Origin: a virus
Reading direction: 5' to 3' (one strand)
IMG/VR virus record: IMGVR_UViG_3300046090_000054
Span: 1-24,801 of that record
DNA: 24,801 bases
Of this stretch, positions 2,750 to 7,512 are shown one piece after another; positions within the stretch are counted from its first letter, which is position 1; each line of letters begins with the position of its first letter. A model generated the notes under the pieces. It saw only the letters and a list, made by a program, of their open reading frames with translations, was not told the DNA's origin and did no database searches. Both the position numbers and the translations under genes were made by a program.

Positions 2750-3193
2750 TTAATCATAACTCTTCAGAAGTTCACACAAAAACATCGCATTACACGCAAC
2801 ATGCTTATAGTGTTCTAGGCCACTTTCTTTATCCTTGCTATGCATATCACCTACCATTTCTAATAAGTGCCTATATAGTGCGTCAACATATCGAGATGGT
2901 TCGACTTTTTTCCACCCATCAGCCCCATTATATTTTTTTATGCCATACGCCCGTACTTCAGATACGTCAAGTATCCCCTGAACAGGAACAAGAGTTGGCT
3001 GTGCCTTTCCCAAATCATGCTTAAAAGTATGTTGTTCAACTATCTTTTCAGAACATTTACACCCATTACCCATATTGCAATCTGTGCAGTTTATGAGGGT
3101 TTTCGAAAATGTATTGACTTGCTCATCGGTAAATCGATCAATTGAAAATCGGTTGTTATTATCGCCAACATAGAACCCATTTGCTGTTTTCAC
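2750..3193 (-). CDS. DUF5664 family (dATP/dGTP diphosphohydrolase-like) with Cys cap
   Basis: A 147-residue protein with a GTG start at 3193; no other in-frame start exists before an upstream stop. Residues about 58-146 match DUF5664, the all-alpha MazG-like family annotated as dATP/dGTP diphosphohydrolase N-terminal domain: KHDLGKAQPTLVP, then EVRAYGIKKYNG, SRYVDALYRHLLEM, and DKESGLEHYKHVACNAMFL. The conserved E, D, H and N positions of the fold are visible. Residues 1-40 (YVGDNNNRFSIDRFT...LINCTDC) are nearly the same as the N-terminus of the Cys-triplet protein at 3284-3688, an unusual addition. A role in nucleotide-pool modification is possible. Its own SD is weak; a 10-codon ORF with a good SD ends 4 nt before its GTG. 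Confidence 0.82.
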   Translation of the reverse strand: MKTANGFYVGDNNNRFSIDRFTDEQVNTFSKTLINCTDCNMGNGCKCSEKIVEQHTFKHDLGKAQPTLVPVQGILDVSEVRAYGIKKYNGADGWKKVEPSRYVDALYRHLLEMVGDMHSKDKESGLEHYKHVACNAMFLCELLKSYD

Positions 3194-3283: not shown

Positions 3284-3688
3284 TCAATTTACACAACATT
3301 TGCAAGCTTCGCAATCTTCGCAATATTTGCAATATTTGCATTCTTTGCACTCTTCACACTCTTTGCATTTTGTGCAACTAAGGCAATTTTTACAACACGC
3401 ACAATCTTTGCAACAAGCGCAAAAACAACAATTTTTATATTGGTCACAGTTCAAACAACTCTCACAACTTCTACACTTCACACTAAAGGCGCAATCTATA
3501 CAATCTGTACAATTAAAACAATTTTCGCAATATTTGCAATCTGTGCAATCTGTGCAATCTGTGCAATCTGTGCAATCTGTGCAATTTATCAGAGAACTTG
3601 CCATTGATATCGCAACCTCTTCTGTAAATCGTTTTTTTGAAAAACGATTGTTATTGTCATCGACATAATAAAGTTCTGTCTTTTTCAT
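3284..3688 (-). CDS. Cysteine-triplet (xxC)n repeat protein
   Basis: The ATG at 3688 is set by AAAGGAGA 9 nt upstream and by the shared promoter/leader module. The 134-residue product has two parts. Residues 1-34 are a non-repetitive cap (YYVDDNNNRFSKKRFTEE...LIN) shared with the DUF5664 gene downstream. Residues about 35-132 are a nearly uninterrupted array of three-residue units ending in Cys (TDC five times, then KYC, ENC, KEC, EDC and similar), with only two units lacking Cys (AFS and DQY). I count 35 Cys. Such regular short periods suggest a narrow solenoid with a stacked Cys ladder, or a metal/thiol-rich protein; which one is inference. Function unknown. Proteins of this look occur in other gut phages, from memory. 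Confidence 0.85.
   Translation of the reverse strand: MKKTELYYVDDNNNRFSKKRFTEEVAISMASSLINCTDCTDCTDCTDCTDCKYCENCFNCTDCIDCAFSVKCRSCESCLNCDQYKNCCFCACCKDCACCKNCLSCTKCKECEECKECKYCKYCEDCEACKCCVN
3541..3585. repeat. 9-bp tandem repeat (CTGTGCAAT)5 in Cys-triplet gene
   Basis: Five exact, head-to-tail copies of CTGTGCAAT (plus strand). On the minus strand they encode the run of Thr-Asp-Cys units. Because 9 bp equals three codons, gain or loss of a unit keeps the frame and only changes the length of the Cys array. Confidence 0.95.
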
Positions 3689-3696
3689 TTGTTTAA

Positions 3697-3785
3697 TCTC
3701 CTTTAAAATAATGTTTGGTTTGTTTGTTTGGTATATTTTTATTATACACAAATTCTTTTGAAAGTGTGTGAACAGAATGTAAACA
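3697..3785 (-). promoter_or_regulatory. Promoter/leader module, copy B
   Basis: Minus strand carries TGTTTACATTCTGTTCACA (3767-3785), 20 bp, TATAAT (3741-3746), then AATATACCAAACAAAC and CATTATTTTAAAGGAGA up to the SD of the Cys-triplet gene. The whole leader down to the SD is nearly the same as copy A in front of the plus-strand gene at 6380. Confidence 0.75.
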
Positions 3786-3956: not shown

Positions 3957-4511
3957 TTACTTCCCCCCATGTCCACCACGGTTGCAAGAGTTGCAAGCAA
4001 GTGCCTCGATAGTTTTATATCTGTTTACTTCTGCCTCAAGTGCGCAATTAGCAGCTGCAAGCTGTTTGCTTTCCAATGCTGCGAACTTTTCAACAATCAG
4101 CGTTTGTGTGTCCTTTGCTGTTGCCTGTTGTGCATAGGCTAGTGTTGTTAACTTGTCATTAATATTATAAAATCCACCTGTCACTTTGTCCCCAATGTCT
4201 GCATTACCAGCAGTAATCGTTGCGGTAATTGCGTGCCCCATCTCGCAAATTTCATGCTGTGTTTGGTTTGCTGTTGAAAGAACGTCCTTGTCTACATTGC
4301 ATACGCCCTCTTGTGTAGCTGGTGCGCAACAACAGTTGTCATCACGTCTGCGACCTCCAAAAAGATCACCATTTGAAACCATTCCTAAAGCTAAGATATC
4401 CCAAATACCACCACCGCCACCAAATCCGCCACCAAATCCGCCACCATAGCCACCACGTCCTCCAGATTGTCCAAGGAATACGCTTTCAGTTTCATTGCTA
4501 ATATGTTCCAA
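3957..4511 (-). CDS. Gly-rich phage protein with Cys cluster and coiled coil
   Basis: The TTG at 4511 is the best start: AGGAGG is 7 nt upstream, whereas the ATG at 4538 lies upstream of that SD. The product has 184 residues. After an N-terminal EHISNETESVFLGQ there is a glycine tract (GGRGGYGGGFGGGFGGGGG), then IWDILALGMVSNGDLF, an Arg/Asp-rich turn and a CCC cluster. A helical, Ala/Gln/Lys-rich region follows, likely coiled coil (about 75-170), and the tail is CNSCNRGGHGGK. I recall this layout, with CCCAPATQEGVCNV and AGNADIGDKVTGGFYNINDKLT, from uncharacterised gut phage proteins. It has its own promoter (4587-4615) and strong terminator, so it is an independent, probably well-expressed unit. 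Function unknown; a structural or surface role is a guess. Confidence 0.75.
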   Translation of the reverse strand: MEHISNETESVFLGQSGGRGGYGGGFGGGFGGGGGIWDILALGMVSNGDLFGGRRRDDNCCCAPATQEGVCNVDKDVLSTANQTQHEICEMGHAITATITAGNADIGDKVTGGFYNINDKLTTLAYAQQATAKDTQTLIVEKFAALESKQLAAANCALEAEVNRYKTIEALACNSCNRGGHGGK

Positions 4512-4586
4512 TATATAACCTCCTGTACAGTGTAGCATATAATAGGCTAGATATATATGCCTAACTTGTTTTTACTAGCCACCTAT

Positions 4587-4615
4587 ATTATACCATATAT
4601 GCACCCAAAAAACAA
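4587..4615 (-). promoter_or_regulatory. Sigma-A type promoter for Gly-rich gene
   Basis: TTGTTT (4610-4615), 17-bp spacer ending in TGG (extended -10), TATAAT (4587-4592) on the minus strand. It lies 76 bp upstream of the TTG start of the 3957-4511 gene. The rest of the 290-bp gap up to 4804 is AT-rich and shows no credible gene. Confidence 0.75.
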
Positions 4616-4633
4616 GGAAGATATTTCCTTTGT
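4606..4633 (-). terminator. Possible weak terminator upstream of promoter 4587-4615
   Basis: Minus strand ACAAAGGAA-ATATC-TTCCTTGT forms an 8-bp stem with one bulged A and is followed directly by TTTTTT. It could end the operon of the genes at 5240-5475 and 4805-5182. The -35 of the next promoter lies in its T run. Confidence 0.4.
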
Positions 4634-4804
4634 AAATTGCTATAGTTTCATTGCTTTTTGTATTTTTGACATGTATTTTCTTGTATATCTTGATTTTTGT
4701 GCGTTCTCGCAACATAACTGGCGTAAAATAACAATTTATTGAGGTTGTAAACAAGGTGTAAATAATAACAACAAATTGTAAAAGTTTATGCCATTGCTTT
4801 TTAA

Positions 4805-5182
4805 TTACAAAATAATTTTACTATACTCTTTTTTGTTTCTTGTGTCTAACCCCCAAACGTCAAGAATCATCCCAAGCTTATCACAAGGCTTGAACACCCC
4901 ATTAAGATATATAACAAAGTATACGTCTTTTGACTTTGCTTGTGGCTTTTCTGTGCGTGTGTAGTTCTTTCTGCCATATGCGTACACTTTGCCATCCTTT
5001 GGGTTGTATATAATCAAATCTCCTTTGTTTCCTGTTGCATATCCGCCAGAGTACTTGCCAACTTTTTTTTGTGATTCACCCCCAAAGATGATATTACCAA
5101 GTATGTCAACCTCTGCAACCCATGGTGTACCATGTTGTTTTGGAGAATATGCTCCATAACTTCGTATAATAGTTTTACACAT
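4805..5182 (-). CDS. Hypothetical protein (125 aa)
   Basis: ATG at 5182, AGGGGG 7 nt upstream. The protein looks beta-rich: an N-terminal KTIIRSYGAYSPKQHGTPWVAEVD, then GNIIFGGESQKKVGKYSGGYATG, GDLIIYNPKDGKVYAYGRKNY, and a C-terminal VYFVIYLNGVFKPCDKLG. No signal peptide, membrane segment or catalytic motif is visible. Several short strands with basic loops could make a small barrel-like domain. I do not recognise it beyond 'uncharacterised phage protein'. It is probably co-transcribed with the small ORF at 5240-5475 from the promoter at 5527-5555. Confidence 0.8.
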   Translation of the reverse strand: MCKTIIRSYGAYSPKQHGTPWVAEVDILGNIIFGGESQKKVGKYSGGYATGNKGDLIIYNPKDGKVYAYGRKNYTRTEKPQAKSKDVYFVIYLNGVFKPCDKLGMILDVWGLDTRNKKEYSKIIL

Positions 5183-5239
5183 AAATAAACCCCCTAAATA
5201 GAAACAGTTTAATATAACAAAGCTCGTAATTGATAATCT

Positions 5240-5475
5240 TTACACACATATCCCACACTCCAAGCGTTTTATGGCTTCAAATGGAATTCTGTGCCTTAAC
5301 CCATCGCCGTCTCGATATACGTCGTCCCATGCCCCGCTTTTCATGTGTAATAGTCTATCCACGAAAAATATAGGATTTTTTGTAACTTGAGATTACTAAT
5401 CGGATTATTTTTATTTGTGCAATACTTCAAGATATAATTTGCTACTTCAAGCGCATTATATGGTTTATGTGTCAC
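5240..5475 (-). pseudogene. Frame-broken small gene with Panacea/SocA-like N-terminus
   Basis: GTG at 5475 with AGGAGG 10 nt upstream. The first frame reads YNALEVANYILKYC... then ISNLKLQKILYF, the hallmark N-terminal helix pair of Panacea (SocA-like, DUF4065) proteins, which act as antitoxin or adaptor domains. It stops at 5341 after SWIDYYT. If one base is added in the T5 run (5364-5368 on plus), the frame continues as VDRLLHMKSGAWDDVYRDGD then GLRHRIPFEAIKRLECGICV to TAA at 5240. This second block does not look like the rest of a Panacea domain. The gene may therefore be a deletion fusion, a decayed gene or a sequencing indel. Promoter at 5527-5555. Confidence 0.55.
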
Positions 5476-5526
5476 GAAGATCACACCTCCTACATTTATC
5501 ATCTGATAATTTGTTCGTATGGATAC

Positions 5527-5555
5527 ACTATAATATAATATATCATATAAAACAA
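5527..5555 (-). promoter_or_regulatory. Putative promoter for 5240-5475 and 4805-5182
   Basis: Minus strand TTGTTT (5550-5555), 17-bp spacer, TATAGT (5527-5532) in a very AT-rich stretch directly downstream of the candidate structured RNA and about 50 bp upstream of the GTG start. Confidence 0.5.
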
Positions 5556-5589
5556 TATTTAATATTTTACTTATTCTTTTGTTTGTTTT

Positions 5590-6038
5590 TAAGTATGTGC
5601 ATTCGGCATGAGAGCCTTTTGCATACAGTTACCCCTACAAAGAGTGGTTATAGTGCATTTTCTTTGTAAAGATAACTGTAAAACACGGTTTATATACATT
5701 CGTATATGAGCCGCCTCAAGCAATACAGAACCTCAATCTACTATCGCATACTTTCCTGCCCAGCATGCTATACAGTGCTTATCACTGTGCTAATAGATCC
5801 CCACATCAGGAATCCCCCACGATGATTTATATACCGCGTCACGTTTAGCGGTTGACGAACAGGACACACAAAGAGGATGTGTATACCCGCCGTTCCATTT
5901 TATGCGTCGGCTGGAAGAACCTACCCGATTTATTAAAGTGTCCATATATACGGGTGCAGGATGACACTATTATTTAATTGTTTTGTGATATACGCTAGAG
6001 GTCGGTTCGCTCGCCCCATCACGTGTAATATCTTTGTT
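5590..6038 (-). ncRNA. Candidate large structured phage RNA (about 450 nt)
   Basis: No ORF with an RBS exists here, yet a consensus promoter (6045-6073) fires into it. Stems seen (plus coordinates of the two arms): 5987-5991/6028-6032; 5920-5927/5951-5960, 8 bp with a 2-nt bulge; 5893-5897/5912-5916; 5865-5870/5878-5883; 5833-5837/5848-5852; 5753-5758/5807-5812 enclosing 5772-5777/5783-5788; 5692-5697/5702-5707 inside 5686-5688/5711-5713; 5625-5631/5673-5679 enclosing 5636-5642/5662-5668 (7 bp each). GC content is locally higher than in the flanks. Size, position and complexity recall ROOL or GOLLD RNAs of Firmicutes phages, but I cannot confirm membership. The 3' end is uncertain: no classical terminator is seen before the AT-rich stretch at about 5590. 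Confidence 0.65.
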
Positions 6039-6044
6039 ATACCT

Positions 6045-6073
6045 ATTATATACCATTAGAATGGTTTTGTCAA
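6045..6073 (-). promoter_or_regulatory. Consensus sigma-A promoter of the candidate RNA
   Basis: Minus strand TTGACA (6068-6073), 17-bp spacer, TATAAT (6045-6050): a full 12/12 match with optimal spacing. Expected start near 6038. It points away from the plus-strand genes and into the gene-free structured segment. Confidence 0.85.
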
Positions 6074-6120
6074 CTATGTAATTAAAAATATATTTACATA
6101 CATGCAACAAAACAATTACC

Positions 6121-6260
6121 AACGCACTATGCATCGCCTACAATGCGCCTGTAATGCAAGTGAACACCGTTGTAGTGTGTTAGCCTTGTAATTGTATGCC
6201 TAAGCATTAGAACGCATTAGAACGCATTAGAACGCATTAGAACGCATTAGAACGCATTGC
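6121..6260. repeat. Iteron-like repeats between divergent promoters
   Basis: Four exact head-to-tail copies of AACGCATTAG (6211-6250), flanked by one imperfect copy on each side (6201-6210 and 6251-6260). The 10-bp unit is close to one helical turn. Just left lie two 11-bp near-copies, GCCTACAATGC and GCCTGTAATGC (6136-6157). An inverted pair AACGCACTA (6121-6129) / TAGTGTGTT (6173-6181) is also present. A related AACGCATAA occurs at 7010-7018. The array sits between the RNA promoter (minus) and promoter copy A (plus), as expected for a replication-initiator or regulator binding site. Which of these it is cannot be read from sequence alone. Confidence 0.8.
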
Positions 6261-6281
6261 ACAACAGAGAACATTAATAAA

Positions 6282-6371
6282 TGTTTACGTTCTGTTCACA
6301 CATTAAAGGCTATGGCGTGCTATAATATAAACATACCAATCAAACAACCACAAACATTATTTTAAAGGAGG
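6282..6371 (+). promoter_or_regulatory. Promoter/leader module, copy A
   Basis: TGTTTACGTTCTGTTCACA (6282-6300), 20 bp, TATAAT (6321-6326), then AACATACCAATCAAAC and CATTATTTTAAAGGAGG (SD 6364-6371). It drives the frameshifted gene at 6380. Confidence 0.75.
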
Positions 6372-6379
6372 TTAAACAA

Positions 6380-7005
6380 ATGGCTACAAGATTAGAATTA
6401 TCAGAGGGAAAACTCATAAGACTGGTAAAAGAACGTGACGAACTCACAAAAAAGGCGATGGATCAGGTGAGGAAAGCGAATGGGCAACCAATGAACGACA
6501 AAAGAGGAGGGGTGCTTGGCTCAAAAAGTGCGATAGCAATGATAAAAGAATATTCAATAAACTTGATGAGATAGAAAAGCAAGAGGAACGCATCGAGTGC
6601 ATAAAGGATAATCAATCTAAAAAAGACAACGGATTAACGGCAAGTTGTGGTTTACAAACTAGTGTACAAAATATCGAAAGCCTAAAAGAAAGGGTTCAAA
6701 ACAAACAACAAAATGGGTCAGCAAGTAGCAGTATTTCATCAGACAAAAAGAAAATAGCAACACTAGAGGCAATTGTCGAAAAAGAACAGAATGACAATAA
6801 GATAATGACGGACAAAGCAAGAAAACTGATAGAACGTGGAGATGTTACTAAGTGGAACAAAAAACCAATATACTACTTTGTTAAAGGATGTCGCAAGGTA
6901 GCGCTTGTTATACAAGAAGAAACAGGAGAGTTTATAATATCTAAAAAATATCCTGCCTTGTGTGATGTGGATAAAGCAAAAGTTAATTCTTTACTTTGTG
7001 AATAG
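6380..7005 (+). CDS. Hypothetical coiled-coil protein split by a -1 frame change
   Basis: ATG at 6380 with AAAGGAGG 8 nt upstream. Frame 0 gives a 64-residue product (MATRLELSEGKLIRLVKERD...NDKRGG...) ending at 6574. The -1 frame is open from about 6440 to the TAG at 7005. It reads KCDSNDKRIFNKLDEIEKQE, a charged coiled-coil middle with GLQTSVQNIESLKERV, and a folded C-terminus KWNKKPIYYFVKGCRKVALV then ETGEFIISKKYP. The two halves clearly belong to one protein of about 208 residues. The switch may be an indel at the A5 run (TCAAAAAG, about 6524-6530) or programmed -1 slippage at A AAA AAG (6448-6454), which is in the right phase. I do not know the family. A nested hairpin follows the stop codon. 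Confidence 0.7.
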
Positions 7006-7020
7006 CCGTAACGCATAATG

Positions 7021-7097
7021 TAACGTCACTTATCCTCTGTCAATAGGTGAATTAATGCAACGTTGCACACCTTGCAAACAGAGCCTAAGTGGCGTTA
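7021..7097. other. 77-nt nested inverted repeat (long hairpin)
   Basis: Arms: TAACGTCACTTA (7021-7032) with TAAGTGGCGTTA (7086-7097), 12 bp with one G-T wobble; a 2x2 internal loop; CTCTGT (7035-7040) with ACAGAG (7078-7083); AGGTG (7045-7049) with CACCT (7068-7072); and at the tip the perfect palindrome TGCAACGTTGCA (7056-7067). It starts 15 nt after the stop of the 6380-7005 gene and ends about 30 bp before promoter copy D. No T run follows, so it is not a standard terminator. It may be a processed 3' UTR structure, a protein-binding DNA site or part of an origin. Confidence 0.8.
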
Positions 7098-7128
7098 TAT
7101 CATGCTAACAAAAGTAAGAAGGAAATAA

Positions 7129-7199
7129 ATGTTCATACATTATTAACACAGTGTAGGGTTTTGTGTGTTATACTGTAAATATACCAATCAAACAAAACA
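7129..7199 (+). promoter_or_regulatory. Promoter/leader module, copy D
   Basis: The most divergent copy: ATGTTCATACATTATTAACA (7129-7148), again 20 bp, TATACT (7169-7174), then GTAAATATACCAATCAAAC. It drives the gene at 7240. Confidence 0.65.
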
Positions 7200-7239
7200 T
7201 TACAACAATAAGCAAACAAGATTGCACAGTGAGGAAGTT

Positions 7240-7488
7240 ATGAAAGTGTTTTTAAATGACAATGGAACAAATTCTAAAAATAGAAGTGAATATGAAGAAC
7301 TTGGTTTTGCTATCGCTGAACAAGCTGCAATAGATTTTATTACGTTACATAGGGTTAAGAAGTCTGATTTGAAGGGAAAATATGAAAGTGAGTTAAAAAG
7401 ATTTTTCGCTTCTGATTGGTGTTTTATGCTTTGTGGAATAGAAGAATCAGATTGGGAAAGATTTATTGAAAAGTATGATATAAAATAA
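7240..7488 (+). CDS. Hypothetical small protein (82 aa)
   Basis: The ATG at 7240 (MKVFLNDNGTN) with GAGGA about 5 nt upstream is preferred over the longer reading starting at 7165, which would begin inside the promoter module. The 82-residue product is acidic and probably helical: EYEELGFAIAEQAAIDFITL, KKSDLKGKYESELKRFFASD, then WCFMLCGIEESDWERFIEKY. No catalytic motif or membrane segment. I recall similar short proteins with a closing 'SDW..L' helix in Firmicutes phages, without a known function. It ends 5 nt before a bidirectional terminator and is convergent with the end of the structural operon. Confidence 0.8.
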   Translation: MKVFLNDNGTNSKNRSEYEELGFAIAEQAAIDFITLHRVKKSDLKGKYESELKRFFASDWCFMLCGIEESDWERFIEKYDIK

Positions 7489-7493
7489 AAGTA

Positions 7494-7512
7494 GGGCGAC
7501 ATTACGTCGCCC
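7494..7512. terminator. Bidirectional Rho-independent terminator
   Basis: GGGCGAC-ATTAC-GTCGCCC: a perfect 7-bp GC-rich stem and 5-nt loop between two convergent genes (plus stop at 7488, minus stop at 7521). T-rich tracts follow on both strands (ATTGATTTTTATTT on plus; TACTTTTATTTTA on minus). Confidence 0.9.

Follow-up and report, generated by a model that had tools for sequence, protein, structure and literature searches.

Positions 5590–6040 of the virus record IMGVR_UViG_3300046090_000054, read on the minus strand, appear on balance to be a phage gene for a non-translated RNA of ∼440 nucleotides (nt). The RNA would be a divergent, core-less relative of a superfamily of RNAs carried by mobile elements. 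The term window is used here for the whole stretch of DNA analysed, i.e. the full 24,801 nt of the record. It is very probable from sequence comparison that the window RNA is homologous to the GEBRO-like and plasmid RNAs described below, because three elements, the PK-A hairpin, the PK-B pseudoknot and a terminal hairpin, agree in order and strand. The computational evidence consists of a promoter match, the lack of a gene, a 5′ hairpin/pseudoknot domain and a terminal hairpin that are both shared with relatives, and helices with compensated pairs.

The segment is situated beyond capsid, tail and tape-measure-like genes, which are on the minus strand of the window. An earlier interpretation, made without database searches and termed here the sequence-only reading, had pointed out a perfect TTGACA-N17-TATAAT promoter directed into the segment. 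A consensus scan agrees: the site at 6073–6045 matches at all 12 positions and is the sole perfect one among 22 promoter-like sites in 4400–7500. The RNA would start ∼7 nt past the −10 box, near 6038. No credible gene is found in the segment, where ∼450 nt are without a plausible open reading frame (ORF), as had been claimed. The only ORF longer than 20 amino acids with a Shine–Dalgarno-like site is a minus-strand frame of 44 amino acids that begins with a TTG at 5723. The G+C content, said to exceed that of the flanks, is indeed 0.39–0.48 within the segment versus 0.25–0.32 in the nearest flanking regions.

Relatives are found on plasmids of Exiguobacterium. A BLASTN search of 7.3 Gb of plasmid sequence produced two matches, both to small Exiguobacterium plasmids, which cover 42 nt of the window (5930–5890) at 88% and E = 3e-3. 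The matched plasmid region is an unannotated, conserved, non-coding stretch of ∼650 nt; here the two plasmids are 85–87% alike over ∼800–930 nt. The region recurs in two more plasmids and in two further genomes of the genus Exiguobacterium. Plasmids with the Exiguobacterium-type RNA are NC_010549, NZ_CP040673, NZ_CP109618 and NC_010607. A profile made only from Exiguobacterium sequences gave the window 17 bits (E = 2.4e-4 over 1.2 Mb), with the runner-up at 2.4 bits. A 9,951-base record named as a Stutzerimonas stutzeri plasmid (CP077642) also has the Exiguobacterium region, twice at a spacing of 5,009 bases, and may be a dimer or a contaminant. The Exiguobacterium plasmids L091 and L094 each encode a protein with a weak, below-cut-off match to DUF5710, and that of L091 also resembles Arc-like repressors.

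The Exiguobacterium region leads to Jeotgalibacillus malaysiensis CP009417, a 603-kb plasmid with at least four paralogous copies of a large RNA at distant places (L092, L108, L109 and L110). A gene beside one of these copies matches a phage DNA polymerase exonuclease family, and the plasmid may be partly phage-like. A conserved-core pattern detects one phage contig, L129. Its RNA has 96% identity with DNA of Lactobacillus phage Lb338-1 that lies, unannotated, between two divergent gene blocks. A further RNA is on the L. taiwanensis plasmid NZ_CP059278. A model termed R1, built only from Exiguobacterium and Jeotgalibacillus sequences, recognizes L. taiwanensis (E = 8e-11), L129 (7e-10), J4 (2e-9) and Lb338-1 (3e-9). 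In 398 genomes of the phylum, R1 finds only Exiguobacterium and one RNase P match, discussed below. The RNAs of the relatives are unannotated and have no overlapping annotated gene, and promoter-like sites are present upstream of the Lb338-1, J1 and Exiguobacterium RNAs. Lactobacillus phage Lbab1 (2500–2975 of L132) has, in the same place by an RNase H gene, the initial 60 nt of the Lb338-1 RNA; beyond these the DNA differs, and a swap of RNA bodies behind one leader is possible.

Features of the window RNA are listed in Table 1. In the PK-A hairpin, all pairs hold in comparison with Exiguobacterium and two pairs are changed on both sides (UA/AU and CG/UA); four cells of the comparison have two-sided changes and none has a broken pair. 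A CGG directly 3′ of the hairpin can pair with the CCG of its loop. This pairing is invariant among members, hence the pseudoknot part of PK-A is a candidate only. The next hairpin of the window, 3′ of PK-A, has counterparts of different sequence and at least 5 pairs in Exiguobacterium (by descriptor) and Jeotgalibacillus (by eye). The candidate 5′ H-type pseudoknot has AGUGUC (5968–5963)/GACACU (5942–5937) interleaved with ACCCG (5955–5951)/CGGGU (5927–5923); by eye, the second stem is the counterpart of ACUCG/CGAGU, a hairpin of Exiguobacterium. In Lb338-1 and L. taiwanensis, the first position is taken by a different pseudoknot.

Table 1. Predicted features of the RNA-encoding segment, in window coordinates
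Feature	Position	Strand	Basis
Predicted sigma-70-type promoter	6045..6073	-	Consensus scan, 12/12 matches
Putative non-coding RNA	5600..6038	-	Promoter, no plausible ORF, homologous 5′ domain and terminal hairpin
5′ H-type pseudoknot, candidate	5923..5968	-	Read directly from the sequence
PK-A: hairpin UUCCA/UGGAA, loop GCCGACGCAUAAAA	5889..5916	-	88% over 42 nt to Exiguobacterium plasmids
Hairpin between PK-A and PK-B (UACACA...UGUGUG)	5864..5884	-	Descriptor and by-eye comparison
PK-B pseudoknot: CGUCA/UGACG with ACCG(C)/(G)CGGU, UAAA between	5833..5857	-	Topology and compensatory changes
3′ terminal hairpin, 3′ arm AGGGGUAACUGU (from 5636)	5624..5680	-	20-nt arms (5624–5643/5661–5680, an inverted repeat), 85% complementary

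PK-B played no part in finding the matches. Its topology, with compensatory changes, is also displayed by Exiguobacterium, Jeotgalibacillus, Lb338-1/L129 and L. taiwanensis; stems in the relatives include CGU/ACG with CAGGG/CCCUG, CGUC/GACG with UGGG/CCCA, and GUAG/CUAC with GCGGG/CCCGU, and the first stem is imperfect in one of eight (J2). The PK-B descriptor has a chance density of 4.7e-5 per nt (2.35 Mb). A descriptor of the whole 5′ domain, hairpin–hairpin–pseudoknot, matches the window site and all four Exiguobacterium RNAs tested, with no match in 2.35 Mb of other viral DNA or in 20,000 shuffles. It does not fit J1–J3, whose first stem-loop differs. The terminal hairpin motif (AGGG-R in the 3′ arm), together with the arm, is common to the window, Exiguobacterium, J1–J3 and both GEBRO plasmids. 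It occurs once in the window, at 5636, where 0.0016 occurrences per 456 nt are expected; J4, Lb338-1 and L. taiwanensis escaped the pattern. For the 5′ domain, MAFFT gave no usable alignment across the three lineages, and pairs were counted element by element.

GEBRO RNAs (RF02988) are expected to lie in the interval between rolling-circle origins of replication or close to a tyrosine recombinase. Model positions 255–338 of RF02988 are matched by the L. taiwanensis RNA with 57 bits, and the GEBRO consensus leads to RNAs on Streptococcus mutans pUA140 (347 bits) and S. thermophilus pSt0 (290 bits), both of which are genuine GEBRO RNAs. With R1, GEBRO reaches only a non-significant 3.9 bits, although in the expected position, and the superfamily therefore rests on the L. 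taiwanensis bridge and on shared motifs. No GEBRO RNA was found in 399 Bacilli and 247 genomes of a probable Streptococcus genus. Like the window segment, the GEBRO RNAs of pUA140 and pSt0 are non-coding, G+C-rich and on small mobile elements, with ∼350 nt plus a terminal hairpin. The GEBRO plasmids and the window both have AGGGR..A(G/C)U in the 3′ arm of this hairpin, which lies downstream of the RF02988 model, and a GCCGAC..AAAA stretch in the 5′ domain is similar by eye. The window differs in having no recognizable GEBRO core and in being a tailed-phage contig, with the RNA beyond the tail genes. Among the proteins scanned, which represent part of the frames of a 24.8-kb fragment, no rolling-circle or tyrosine recombinase gene was recognized.

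The RNAs of Exiguobacterium, Jeotgalibacillus, Lb338-1 and L. taiwanensis share with the window the 5′ order of hairpin, hairpin and PK-B, and several have the terminal hairpin. However, these relatives keep a core, GUACG(A/U)C..hairpin..UUCCUCGUARGCGGC, that the window does not have. Exiguobacterium and most Jeotgalibacillus copies also display an 11-nt motif similar to a GAAA-tetraloop receptor, CCUA(A/C)G..UAUGG, again not found in the window. It is tentatively proposed that plasmids, a multi-paralogue megaplasmid and lytic and other phages carry a large superfamily of tertiary-folded RNAs that evolves fast and has GEBRO as one of its branches. Its domains would be interchangeable around a 5′ pseudoknot domain and a 3′ terminal hairpin held in common. 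The window RNA would represent a minimal phage form.

Several results weigh against a core-less member of such a superfamily in the window. The first link was a single 42-nt match at E = 3e-3, and no close homologues were found in IMG/VR, phage or genome collections. RF02988 has no window match at its gathering threshold and no candidate at E ≤ 10. The R1 core model reaches at best −0.4 bits (E = 1.7), i.e. the conserved core is absent. The AAG linker of PK-B in most relatives is not present in the window PK-B. The window sequence had already been inspected when the descriptors for PK-B, the 5′ domain and the terminal hairpin were written, which makes the chance rates of these descriptors optimistic. 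Folding energy is a further point. The whole segment has z = −3.0 to −3.55 relative to shuffles, but without the 5624–5680 hairpin the values are −0.59 (5691–6040) and 0.08 (5800–6040). All the excess folding energy is due to this single hairpin, and the remainder folds no better than shuffles. The sequence-only reading had counted at least eight stems in an ornate structure. The stems and the 5624–5680 arm are real, but most of the listed stems are at chance level, as z is near zero once the hairpin is removed. The biologically meaningful pieces, the pseudoknots, came from homology and not from the stem count.

Other searches for relatives gave none. A search of the phage collection found no relatives of the segment. 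With neighbouring proteins as bait (4805–5182 and the 551-amino-acid tail protein), no close homologues were found in IMG/VR; relatives of the capsid at 85–88% are fragments of 5–7 kb without the region, and the RNA is absent from 80 distant tail-protein loci. A BLAST match at L077/L079 was rejected as an RNA relative because it falls within a coding frame. Pseudo-protein scans of the RNA found nothing.

ROOL (RF03087) and GOLLD (RF02032), to which the segment had been compared, are large structured non-coding RNAs of phages and prophages with unknown function (PMC12286853). The window has no Rfam cmscan match at gathering thresholds and nothing plausible up to E = 10 in 5200–6360, and ROOL, GOLLD, HEARO and OLE are thus not supported. 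ROOL and GOLLD are often close to phage transfer RNA (tRNA) genes and form a multimeric RNA cage. The window RNA would likewise be a large phage RNA but is shorter and has no tRNA nearby; ARAGORN found no tRNA or tmRNA in the window. The suggestion of a large phage non-coding RNA thus holds as probable, given distant homologues with covarying helices, but the kin detected are GEBRO-like and not ROOL or GOLLD.

The R1 match to a chromosomal RNase P RNA (L122) raised kinship with RNase P. This was rejected because the letters common to L122 and the plasmid RNAs are the CCUA(A/C)G/UAUGG receptor-like motif and RF00011 has no match to the plasmid RNAs. RF00010 and RF00011 have no match in the window and none in the Jeotgalibacillus plasmid. 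L122 is a genuine RNase P RNA, and the cross-match probably stems from the shared tetraloop-receptor motif.

The window RNA is probably a truncated or divergent relative and a free folded RNA. It would be transcribed on the minus strand from the 6073–6045 promoter, would fold through pseudoknots into a compact shape, and would bind a host or element macromolecule in trans, as proposed for ROOL and GOLLD, instead of serving as a template or leader. By analogy, a trans-acting mode as a folded RNA is a plausible proposal, held with slightly less than even confidence.

An unlikely alternative is a DNA- or replication-level element, in which a folded single strand or primer RNA functions as a rolling-circle single-strand origin or in an RNA-primed replicon; replication is the main rival for the plasmid members. 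The ssoA and ssoU single-strand origins are, like the segment, strand-specific, hairpin-rich and non-coding and belong to small Gram-positive elements. TAGCGT, a motif of ssoA, is near the 5′ end of the segment, and no Rep protein was recognized among the scanned Exiguobacterium plasmid proteins (L090, L091 and L094). However, relatives of the window RNA are also found where replication is not of the rolling-circle type. Lb338-1 is a lytic phage of large size, the Jeotgalibacillus plasmid has at least four copies at distant places, and the L. taiwanensis plasmid encodes a Rep_trans protein of its own. Predicted promoters are directed into the RNAs. Because a lytic phage has the RNA and one megaplasmid has four copies of it, a role restricted to plasmid origins is disfavoured.

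It is improbable that the segment is a decayed, functionless remnant of such an RNA, which would explain the absent core and the weak folding outside one hairpin, and for which there is a precedent in L121, a decayed fragment of the plasmid RNA within a chromosome; the perfect promoter, intact compensated pseudoknots and 20-bp terminal hairpin argue otherwise. It is quite improbable that the segment acts in cis as a long 5′ leader for the minus-strand genes that come next (5502 and below). Same-strand genes do follow the RNA, with a ribosome site before ∼5480, and no U-run terminator was found between the terminal hairpin and the next gene, so that the RNA 3′ end is not defined. However, the frame directly after the RNA (5341–5502, minus strand, 53 amino acids) matches PHROG 1281 at the N-terminus only and looks truncated or frameshifted. 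A leader is disfavoured because neighbour genes differ in every lineage, with none common to Exiguobacterium, Lb338-1, Jeotgalibacillus and L. taiwanensis. A chance resemblance to unrelated plasmid RNAs, with an accidental promoter before a spacer of higher G+C content or the remnant of an old coding sequence, would suit the modest E-value of the first match and a z-score carried by one hairpin but is hardly to be expected when three separate elements are shared and agree in order and strand.

Other observations concern the rest of the window. A perfect tandem array of GCATTAGAAC (6204–6258, 5.5 copies) is just upstream of a plus-strand gene. Two 72-nt copies (6276–6347 and 7124–7195), 74% identical, are each just upstream of a plus-strand gene and may represent a duplicated promoter/leader. 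The minus strand encodes a cysteine-rich protein with CTDCTDCTDC repeats formed by 9-bp tandem repeats (3284–3751) and a protein that matches PF18909, an N-terminal dATP/dGTP diphosphohydrolase family (2750–3193). A relative of the 551-amino-acid tail protein in MT837771 directly follows a reverse transcriptase-like frame (4015–5181), an arrangement as in diversity-generating retroelements; no such gene was seen in the window.

Few large RNAs of unknown function are known from bacterial mobile elements. With GEBRO, the Exiguobacterium plasmid RNAs, the four megaplasmid paralogues and the Lb338-1 RNA linked, an isolated Rfam family becomes a widespread one, with members amenable to genetics; the link also speaks against a function confined to the origins of rolling-circle plasmids. 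The present work extends the GEBRO-like superfamily, with the window as a divergent phage relative, and suggests that this mobile-element RNA family is much wider than catalogued. The window contributes a short phage form without the core; if the superfamily reading is true, this form would show which parts of the RNA are dispensable.
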